NCBI GenBank assembly: GCA_028242535.1
Contig: JAOJYB010000010.1
Coordinates: forward strand, 1-35,332
Direction: 5' to 3'
Length of the DNA stretch: 35,332 nt
DNA from: Candidatus Nitrosopelagicus sp.
GTDB lineage: Archaea > Thermoproteota > Nitrososphaeria > Nitrososphaerales > Nitrosopumilaceae
Shown piece after piece: positions 11,938-21,693 of this stretch. The notes under the pieces are model-generated. The model was not told where the DNA came from. It did not search any database and was given only the letters and a program-made list of their open reading frames with translations. Position numbers and translations under genes: made by a program. Position 1 is the stretch's first letter, and each line of letters starts with the position of its first letter.

Positions 11938-12037
11938 GGAGGGGTATCGAAGCCCGGTCAACCGAGAAGGACTCAAGATCATCGTATAAGATATCCTTTC
12001 TCTTAGGAGTTCGTGGGTTCGAATCCCACCCCCTCCA
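11938..12037 (+). tRNA. tRNA-Leu (anticodon CAA) containing an intron
   Basis: A class II tRNA can be folded by hand. Acceptor GGAGGGG (11938-11944) pairs perfectly with CCCCTCC (12030-12036), followed by discriminator A (12037); CCA is not encoded. The D stem is TCG/CGA with GG in the loop. The anticodon stem AAGGA (11967-11971) pairs with TCCTT (11994-11998). The loop CTCAAG/A gives anticodon CAA at 11974-11976, reading UUG leucine codons. A short variable arm with CTC/GAG and a T arm GTGGG-TTCGAAT-CCCAC complete it. The anticodon stem only closes if 15 bases are removed from the loop. An open frame across this region is spurious. Confidence 0.95.
11978..11992 (+). other. 15-nt intron in tRNA-Leu(CAA), at position 37/38
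   Basis: The inserted bases ATCATCGTATAAGAT lie after position 37, the standard archaeal tRNA intron site. Because of flanking repeats the exact boundaries can slide by up to three bases. Archaeal splicing endonuclease recognises a bulge-helix-bulge; I could draw only an imperfect version, with C-G, U-A and A-U pairs and one mismatch. Confidence 0.85.
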
Positions 12038-19034: not shown

Positions 19035-20312
19035 TCATTGAATTTGCTTAATCTTTTTTATTACTTCTGTAGGTGTATTACCAAATACAATAATCATAGG
19101 TTCTTTTCCTAAATCACCTTTATGATATATGATATCCGGCATTTCTGATTTCAAACAACTAGAGACTCCCCACGATATCGAGGAGTTTTCTTTTAATTTT
19201 GAATTTTTAGATTCTTTTTTTCTATTATAAGTTAACACTGACATTTTACGTTTTTTTGCCTTAGTGATTAATTTTGGTTCATATTTTATATTAATTGCTG
19301 AACGAATCTCAGGAAATTTCTTTGACACTTCAATTAGTGCCGTTGCAACGTGTTGTGATCCTCCGAATACTAGATCCCCTGCTTGAATGACATTATTTCC
19401 AGATTTGACAAGCCTTCCAGAAATACCTAAAACATTTTTGATATTCTTTGGTTTATTTTTTGAAAAAACAAAATTTGTTTGGCATTCAGGAATAATTTTT
19501 GAGACATCTTTAATATTTTGAAAATCAATTATTGAAAGTGAAAGTTGTTTTTGTATTTCAGAATTTTTTTTATGAGTTATTTTAATTCCTTTTCCTAAAT
19601 CTTTAGAATTTTTTATTGACTGATAGACATACTCTTTTGCAATATTTGCTGCTTCATGAATTGATTTTTTTCTAGCAAGTGATGCAGTTATTGATGCTGA
19701 ATAATTGCATCCACTTCCATGATTAATCATTTTGATTCTTTTTCCCTTCAAAATGTAATTTCTATCCGACTCCATTACAAAATCTTCTATCTCCCTTTCG
19801 GATTCCCTATATCCAGTTATTATGACATTTCTAGCACCTAATTCTTGTAATCTCTTGGCAGCATCATCTACTTTGCTACATCCTGATAAAATCTTAGATT
19901 CTCTCTTGTTAGGTGTGATAATTGTGGCTAATGGTATTATCATTTTCCTATAATCTGTGATTGCTGATTTTTTTAATAAAATTGTCTTGGTTGTAGATTC
20001 AATTATTGGATCAACTATTATTGGACATTTTTGATTTTTTATCATTTCATGTACAGCTTTGATAATTGACGAATCATACATCATTCCAATTTTAATTGAA
20101 TCAATTTGAAAATCTGATAACACTGATTCTAATTGAGATTTTATAATTTTTGAGGAAATTGGTAAAATTTTAGAAATTTTTTTTGTATTCTGACTGGTAA
20201 TGGCAGTAATTACTGTAAAACCATACACGCCGTGATTCTCAAATGTTTTGATGTCACTTTGAATTCCTGCCCCAGATGATGGGTCTGAGCCGCCAATTGA
20301 AAGAACATTCAT
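19035..20312 (-). CDS. thiDN: Bifunctional HMP/HMP-phosphate kinase and thiamine-phosphate synthase (ThiD-ThiN)
   Basis: The 425-residue protein joins two domains. Residues 1 to about 255 are ThiD: GGSDPSSGAGIQSDIKTF at the N-terminus and the anion-hole motif NHGSGCNYSASITA near its end. This part phosphorylates hydroxymethylpyrimidine and its phosphate. Residues about 270-425 are ThiN, the archaeal thiamine-phosphate synthase that replaces ThiE, with GDLVFGGSQHVATALIEV and the closing DIIYHKGDLGKEPMIIVFG. It is divergent from thiC, with only 52 bases between the two start codons and one TATA-like palindrome midway. All landmarks look intact. Confidence 0.93.
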   Translation of the reverse strand: MNVLSIGGSDPSSGAGIQSDIKTFENHGVYGFTVITAITSQNTKKISKILPISSKIIKSQLESVLSDFQIDSIKIGMMYDSSIIKAVHEMIKNQKCPIIVDPIIESTTKTILLKKSAITDYRKMIIPLATIITPNKRESKILSGCSKVDDAAKRLQELGARNVIITGYRESEREIEDFVMESDRNYILKGKRIKMINHGSGCNYSASITASLARKKSIHEAANIAKEYVYQSIKNSKDLGKGIKITHKKNSEIQKQLSLSIIDFQNIKDVSKIIPECQTNFVFSKNKPKNIKNVLGISGRLVKSGNNVIQAGDLVFGGSQHVATALIEVSKKFPEIRSAINIKYEPKLITKAKKRKMSVLTYNRKKESKNSKLKENSSISWGVSSCLKSEMPDIIYHKGDLGKEPMIIVFGNTPTEVIKKIKQIQ

Positions 20313-20324
20313 GCTGATCGTAAG

Positions 20325-20342
20325 TTAAACGATTGTTTAAAT
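20325..20342. promoter_or_regulatory. Shared bidirectional promoter element between thiDN and thiC
   Basis: The palindrome TTTAAA (20336-20341) is centred 26.5 nt from the thiC ATG (20365) and 26.5 nt from the thiDN ATG (20312), ideal TATA-box spacing for leaderless transcription in both directions. It is part of a 6-bp inverted repeat TTAAAC/GTTTAA (20325-20330 and 20335-20340) with a four-base spacer. There is no room for a TPP riboswitch. Confidence 0.65.
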
Positions 20343-20364
20343 CCACCATTTGACAATTTGATAT

Positions 20365-21693
20365 ATGGCAACTCAAATGACTTCTGCACGTAGAGGTGTG
20401 GCTACTGATGAAATGAAACAGGTAGCAAAAGACGAAGATGTAACTCTTGACTGGTTAGTTCCAAAAATTGCTAGTGGTTCAATAATAATTCCTAGTAATA
20501 ATGCGCGTAAAGAAAAAATCCATAATGTAGGAATTGGTAAAGGTACAAAAACCAAGGTGAATGTAAACATTGGTACCTCTACCTTGAATGTCAATATTGA
20601 TGAAGAAGTTGAGAAAGCCAAAGTTGCAGTAAAATATCATGCAGATACTATCATGGATTTGAGTGATGGTGGTGATGTTGGAGTTGTTCGAAGACGATTA
20701 TTGGAAGTTGCACCAATTACATTTGGAACTGTACCAATTTATGAAGCATATAACTTTGGAGTTGAAAAACACAAAAACCCATTAGATATAACTGAAGATG
20801 ATTTTCTTAAAGCATTTGAAAATAATATAAAAGATGGAGTTGATTACACAACAATACATTCTGGCATAACAAAAGAAATTGCTAAAAGAATTCTAAAGGT
20901 TGAAAGATATGCTGGCGTAGTTAGTAAAGGTGGAACTATTACTGCCGCTTGGATGCTAAAATACGATAAAGAAAATCCTTACATCACTCATTATGACTAT
21001 ATGATGGAACTGGCACAAAAATATGATGTGACATTTAGTTTAGGTGATGCTCTAAGACCTGGTTCTATTTTAGACTCTCATGATGAATTACAAGTCCAAG
21101 AAATGATTAACATATCTAGACTTGCTAAACGCGCAAATGAAAAAGAAGTTCAAGTTATGGTTGAAGGTCCTGGACATGTTCCATTAAATGAAGTAGCAGC
21201 GAATGTAAGGTTAGCAAAATCACTCATAGGTGATGTTCCATACTATGTCTTAGGACCATTAGTGACTGATATTGCATCTGGACATGACCATATTGCAAGT
21301 GCTATCGGTGCTGCAGTTTCAGCTAGTGAAGGTGTTGATCTTTTATGTTATCTTACTCCTTCTGAACATCTTGCATTACCTAATTCTGAAGAAGTGAAAG
21401 CTGGTTTGATTGCCTACCGAATTGCAGCTCATGCTGGCGATCTTGTAAAATTAAGAGAAAAAGCAATAAAATGGGATATGAAGATGACTGAAGCTAGAAG
21501 AACTCTTGATTGGGAAAAACAATTGGCTTTATCAATTGATCCTGAATTAGCTGCTAAAATTCATGGAAGAACTGGTCAACACCCTGGAAATAATGTTCCT
21601 TGTACAATGTGTGGTGGCGCATGTGTGTATCTTATGTTACCACAACAAAGAAAATATGAAAAAGATCCTGAAAAATTAGAACAATCTACCTAA
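20365..21693 (+). CDS. thiC: Phosphomethylpyrimidine synthase ThiC
   Basis: ThiC rearranges aminoimidazole ribotide to HMP phosphate using S-adenosylmethionine and a 4Fe-4S cluster. The protein has 442 residues, the short archaeal/core form without the bacterial N-terminal extension. Conserved stretches include KVNVNIGTS, DLSDGGD, VERYAGVVSKGG, FSLGDALRPGSI, EGPGHVPLNE and LGPLVTDIASGHDH. The C-terminal cluster motif is Cys413-x2-Cys416-x3-Cys420, one residue shorter than the CX2CX4C of the bacterial enzymes. It is divergent from thiDN and overlaps the 3' end of a Nudix gene by 18 bases. Confidence 0.95.
   Translation: MATQMTSARRGVATDEMKQVAKDEDVTLDWLVPKIASGSIIIPSNNARKEKIHNVGIGKGTKTKVNVNIGTSTLNVNIDEEVEKAKVAVKYHADTIMDLSDGGDVGVVRRRLLEVAPITFGTVPIYEAYNFGVEKHKNPLDITEDDFLKAFENNIKDGVDYTTIHSGITKEIAKRILKVERYAGVVSKGGTITAAWMLKYDKENPYITHYDYMMELAQKYDVTFSLGDALRPGSILDSHDELQVQEMINISRLAKRANEKEVQVMVEGPGHVPLNEVAANVRLAKSLIGDVPYYVLGPLVTDIASGHDHIASAIGAAVSASEGVDLLCYLTPSEHLALPNSEEVKAGLIAYRIAAHAGDLVKLREKAIKWDMKMTEARRTLDWEKQLALSIDPELAAKIHGRTGQHPGNNVPCTMCGGACVYLMLPQQRKYEKDPEKLEQST

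Follow-up and report, generated by a model that had tools for sequence, protein, structure and literature searches.

Symmetric bidirectional promoters, in which the symmetry of the element leads to divergent transcription, were reportedly described in bacteria and archaea by Warman et al. in 2021. For Pyrococcus furiosus, a BRE-TATA-BRE element centred on TTTAAA has been shown to drive transcription in both directions in vitro, from starts placed 49 bp apart; the consensus of this organism is a nearly symmetric TTTAAA, antisense starts cluster about 50 bp ahead of the primary ones, and TBP is symmetric, TFB being thought to set the direction (PMC6640164).

The locus reported here lies in a stretch of 35,332 nucleotides, hereafter the window, which is one contig of a genome of 25 contigs and 1.0 Mb, 81% complete. 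Its ThiC protein is 99% identical to ThiC of a Candidatus Nitrosopelagicus MAG. The features of interest are the following:

19035 to 20312, minus strand: thiDN, fusion of ThiD (HMP-P kinase) and ThiN (thiamine-phosphate synthase), 425 aa, ATG start
20313 to 20364: divergent spacer of 52 nt between thiDN (minus) and thiC (plus), proposed bidirectional core promoter
20316 to 20320: GATCG, starting 20 nt upstream of TTTAAA; by eye, the 52-nt and 84-nt subclades of the genus have it at equal spacing
20325 to 20340: TTAAAC-GATT-GTTTAA dyad, arms starting at 20325 and 20335, operator candidate of the earlier note
20335 to 20343, plus strand: GTTTAAATC, conserved thiC promoter core (TATA and flanks)
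20336 to 20341: TTTAAA, proposed shared TATA box, centred 26.5 nt from both ATGs
20365 to 21693, plus strand: thiC, HMP-P synthase, 442 aa, ATG start

Pfam matches were PF08543 (Phos_pyr_kin, 6.5e-74) and PF10120 (ThiN, 7.9e-51) for thiDN, and PF01964 (ThiC_Rad_SAM, 6.1e-174) for thiC. The centre of TTTAAA, 20338.5, is 26.5 nt away from the A of the thiC ATG (20365), and also 26.5 nt away from 20312, the minus-strand first base of the thiDN ATG, in agreement with the coordinates by which the earlier note had placed the element at equal distance from both divergent start codons. GATCG likewise begins 20 nt before the TTTAAA of thiC at the matching places of L019, L022, L023 and L025, and both subclades of the genus have it; in Nitrosopumilus, GATCGATC or GCGATC recurs ahead of thiC.

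With the ATGs taken as proxies for transcription starts, the locus has the organisation of the P. furiosus element, namely a single TATA element with a symmetric TTTAAA core, halfway between divergent starts separated by about 50 bp. It differs from it in what is transcribed. In the P. furiosus study, the second transcript is an antisense RNA upstream of head-to-tail genes, and transcription was shown; here two coding genes of one pathway are concerned, both ATGs stand at the expected start points in an arrangement kept in several genera, and the promoter is a predicted one. By analogy, it may also resemble the promoters of Warman et al., with which it shares element symmetry and divergent orientation. 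No paper describing a shared thiDN-thiC promoter was found in the open-access papers searched. The promoter type is already known; the locus adds to it that coding genes of a single pathway lie at leaderless spacing in both directions, in a layout that recurs over a family.

We consider it probable that the spacer is a bidirectional core promoter of old standing, belongs to the shared-TATA type known from archaea, and serves to co-express two enzymes that act one after the other in B1 synthesis. We infer that TBP would bind the palindromic TTTAAA and that TFB would dock on either side of the box, RNA polymerase being recruited in one of the two directions. Transcription would start about 26 nt from the box, at or within about 3 nt of either start codon, and the thiC and thiDN mRNAs would both be leaderless or nearly so. 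The layout would co-express ThiC (HMP-P) with ThiDN (kinase and thiamine-phosphate synthase); it would be old in Nitrosopumilaceae, and was probably opened later, several times, by insertions giving thiDN its own promoter.

To place the distance of 26.5 nt in its genomic context, we used 400 kb of G052, a complete genome of the window's genus, with ORFs called mechanically from the first ATG, and surveyed the 290 ATGs preceded by largely non-coding DNA. A/T-only hexamers peaked at centres −26.5 (110 of 290) and −25.5 (109 of 290), with counts of mostly 23 to 52 outside the peak; TTTAAA itself also peaked at −26.5 (7 of 290 ATGs). Such a pattern is expected if many G052 genes are leaderless and have their TATA box some 26 nt ahead of the start. 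For both thi genes the box lies at this genus-wide peak, the usual TATA distance for leaderless starts, so that the idea of a single TATA element at leaderless distance from both genes is supported by the survey. Among the 81 head-to-head pairs in the same 400 kb, thiDN-thiC was the only one sharing a box at the called ATGs, and one further pair could do so if a later ATG were chosen. A cluster of these pairs has spacers of 85-98 nt, which leaves room for two boxes. Among the open-access titles and abstracts surveyed, there was nothing usable on mapped leaderless starts in Thaumarchaeota, nor on ThiR.

It may be asked whether the arrangement is a coincidence of a small genome, two genes having come to lie 52 nt from each other with an A/T-rich stretch between them. 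Chance was modelled with a first-order Markov chain derived from the non-coding DNA of a relative (19230 simulated spacers of 52 nt). TTTAAA was present somewhere in 9.7% of these spacers, which is in favour of a coincidence, but it was exactly centred in just 0.21%, and the layout is retained in 8 genera, among them some whose single-box genomes, at 1.6-2.5 Mb, show no reduction. The centring of TTTAAA is therefore unusual by chance, and the comparative data largely refute this explanation; we regard it as hardly credible. The simulation gave a different answer for the dyad, since any 6-bp inverted repeat with a loop of at most 8 nt occurred in 13.5% of the spacers, which makes it ordinary.

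Conservation was then examined in Nitrosopumilaceae, where thiC is present in 232 of 250 genomes. The comparison set consists of 107 of these 232, from 21 genera, for which the thiC upstream locus was at hand; they were picked by listing rank and genus rather than at random, L196 (a C-terminal thiC fragment) was omitted, and genomes without thiDN in view (e.g. both of g3, g7 and g21) were counted as not single-box. A set of 80 named loci gives the same picture, and was kept out of the count since it repeats many of these contigs. One TTTAAA for both starts, in a spacer of 51-57 nt, was found in 41 of the 107 genomes and 8 of the 21 genera: 16 of 22 genomes in g1 (the window's genus), 4/4 in g2, 1/1 in g6, 1/1 in g10, 12/13 in g15, 2/2 in g18, 3/3 in g20 and 2/2 in g22. 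The earlier note had named a spacing not conserved in relatives as the outcome that would speak against a shared box; this outcome did not appear. In single-box genomes the box lies 24.5-28.5 nt from thiDN (mode 26.5) and 26.5-29.5 nt from thiC, and spacer sequence outside the box differs among them. Exact 26.5/26.5 symmetry characterises 16 of 22 genomes of g1; one g2 and one g22 genome show 27.5/27.5, the other single-box genomes outside g1 being off by 1-3 nt. Of the conserved spacing that had been proposed, the short single-box spacer thus holds across genera, whereas exact symmetry is general only in the window's genus. Start codons vary in kind (ATG, GTG or TTG for thiDN, ATG or TTG for thiC), and their positions are kept across genera despite this variation, which supports the start calls.

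At thiC, TTTAAA is present in 105 of the 107 genomes, even with thiDN up to 771 bases off. Its flanks are nearly invariant among these 105, the box being preceded by G in 102 and followed by T in 105 and then by C in 93, and they are kept even where thiDN is hundreds of bases distant. These observations raise the possibility that the box is the promoter of thiC alone, thiDN using a weak box closer to its own ATG, or else being transcribed with a leader from within thiC. Conservation of GTTTAAATC-type flanks at thiC, with or without an adjacent thiDN, could by itself explain the conservation of the box, and many Nitrosopumilus genomes seem to do without a −26 box at thiDN. Nevertheless, the 52-nt spacer contains no A/T-only hexamer other than TTTAAA and the overlapping TTAAAT, spacer length is held at 51-57 nt in all 8 genera, and in both promoter models that we used no site in the thiDN direction scores higher than this box, at −26. 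A promoter serving thiC only is thus unlikely, and a shared box remains the preferred reading.

The two promoter models disagree on the TFB side. For the thiDN-side TFB score, the 16-wide model, whose last column is artefactual, gave p 0.97 for single-box versus other genera, and the 13-wide model, trained without the thi genes, gave p 0.006, both with kinship ignored; rows that lacked TTTAAA or had short flanks were excluded, and the genera g1 and g15 are present in both groups. As the models disagree, we give this comparison no weight. Under the 13-wide model the box of the window has low scores in both directions (0.24 and 0.88 bits). Per-base tallies of the right flank give mostly TCCA in single-box genera and TCAGG-like sequences elsewhere; this would fit a thiDN-side element, and is only suggestive.

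How the layout evolved was considered on a ThiC tree of 55 rows, five of them from other families of the order. Five layout changes were counted, against a minimum of 11 and a mean of 14.5 in 200 label shuffles. Because both branches of the family's deepest split include the single-box layout, the simplest reading would be an ancestral single box with later openings, although change counts cannot prove direction. Outside the family, 14 loci of the same order (L221-L234) were compared, and none had a single-box spacer; thiDN was within the fetched stretch in 2 of the 14, with gaps of 126 and 1077. The converse scenario, two boxes collapsing into one in the window's lineage, had been suggested by the 84-nt subclade, and was rejected on finding single-box spacers in seven further genera.

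Where the spacer is longer, thiDN appears to have another promoter, while thiC retains its box. The 83-84 nt spacers of the window's genus have a second A/T box at thiDN's own −23 to −30.5 (5 of 5). In Nitrosopumilus (g14) the spacer measures 729-771 nt (thiDN in view in 27 of 28 genomes), a different conserved block lies upstream of thiDN, and the −26 box is missing in many genomes. Many expanded genomes, in Nitrosopumilus and others, have no A/T hexamer at −23 to −28 of thiDN; thiDN therefore need not be leaderless everywhere.

Several features of these longer spacers may be recorded. The Nitrosopumilus block is GGAAAAATAGATTAGTRCTAA-like and sits about 15-40 nt before the thiDN start (e.g. 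L031, L055, L061), and several of these blocks contain a TTAGTRCTAA near-palindrome. Between thiDN and thiC, L031, L055, L092 and L106 carry small ORFs whose CxxC-type cysteine pairs look zinc-ribbon-like by eye; the Nitrosopumilus spacers inspected contain such ORFs. In L084, an insert of 1480 bases separates the two genes; its two ORFs, of about 208 and 232 residues, resemble by eye a methyltransferase and an endonuclease/exonuclease-type protein.

We now turn to regulation. In other archaea, thiamine genes are controlled transcriptionally by ThiR, which consists of a DNA-binding domain and a ThiN-like domain, via palindromic sites near promoters. The TTAAAC/GTTTAA repeat is the sole 6-bp inverted repeat of the 52-nt spacer, and the earlier note had seen in it a possible operator. 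This proposal did not survive comparison: the dyad was found in 13 of the 107 genomes, all in g1, which, with the chance rate given above, led us to reject it, and G052, G081 and G070 lack it though they belong to the window's single-box clade. It is probably a lineage-specific, incidental feature. No conserved palindrome common to several thiamine genes was found either, the dyad being limited to one genus and not seen at thi4. Its lack of conservation, together with the absence of a second ThiN-domain protein in the genomes searched, sets the locus apart from the ThiR regulons. A search with PF10120 gave only ThiDN in the window's own genome (81% complete, as mentioned), and in 18 relatives, 17 of which are at least 90% complete, one match each, in a frame of 431-521 aa, with no second one. 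Since the ThiN family occurs once per genome, as ThiDN, a ThiR-like regulator is not in evidence in these genomes. As had been anticipated, no TPP riboswitch was detected at the Rfam gathering score on either strand of the whole window, where a tRNA was the sole family reaching it. This tRNA match (11938-12037) covers 100 bases against a model of 71 positions, and the gene probably contains an intron.

The near-invariant flanks could also mean that the conserved core is mainly an operator over the TATA box, on which a hypothetical thiamine-responsive repressor would shut both genes at once. The G before and TC after the box go beyond a generic TATA need, and GTTTAAATC is rare, with 6 copies in the 1.0-Mb genome. 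Yet none of the 14 thi4 loci inspected showed it directly before the gene, their thi4 promoters looking different, and the other signs expected of such a system, a conserved dyad and a second, ThiR-like ThiN protein in the genome itself or in the 18 relatives, are those found wanting above. Promoter function by itself can, moreover, yield strong conservation of a core promoter. An operator of this kind seems to us very improbable.

The copies of GTTTAAATC were inspected further, six in the window's own genome and 30 of the 44 found in four relatives. A thiamine-regulon motif was discarded on this basis, thiC, with or without thiDN, being the sole thiamine gene recognised beside the copies. In L144 and L145, from two genera, GTTTAAATC lies 26 nt from the GTG start of an antiporter-like membrane protein, identified by eye.

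A TTAG-N6-CTAATT inverted repeat was noticed upstream of the TATA-like box of thi4 in 7 of the 14 loci (L150, L152, L153, L154, L155, L156 and L158), roughly 130 bases before the Thi4 domain, and two further loci have it elsewhere. In 400 kb of G052 it occurs once, in coding DNA. It is possibly a thiamine operator.

Returning to the shared box, ThiC makes HMP-P, the substrate used by ThiDN, and the two are sequential enzymes of B1 synthesis. Joint expression is thus sensible, and exclusive expression of the two genes, one of the outcomes first envisaged for a single TBP site, makes little sense. Mutual exclusion of single complexes would follow from the geometry of a shared box. For five bidirectional promoters tested in E. 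coli, however, basal firing was too low to bring the two directions into competition (PMC12825309). The shared box might be kept because it is itself a control device, taking the place of a dedicated regulator in lineages without ThiR and TPP riboswitches, a single pre-initiation complex at a time tying the outputs of ThiC and ThiDN and fixing their ratio with low noise; we hold this for a doubtful proposal. If it were true, an opened spacer, as in Nitrosopumilus, would mean that the two steps had come under separate control.

Marine ammonia-oxidizing archaea have been proposed as important B1 producers of the dark ocean, and archaeal thiC and thi4 show high expression there (PMC12236431). A two-way promoter of two coding genes, kept over several genera, would offer a natural way to test whether bidirectional promoters in archaea are noise or under selection. 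It would also bear on whether the two directions compete, with the sister clades that have opened spacers as built-in controls.
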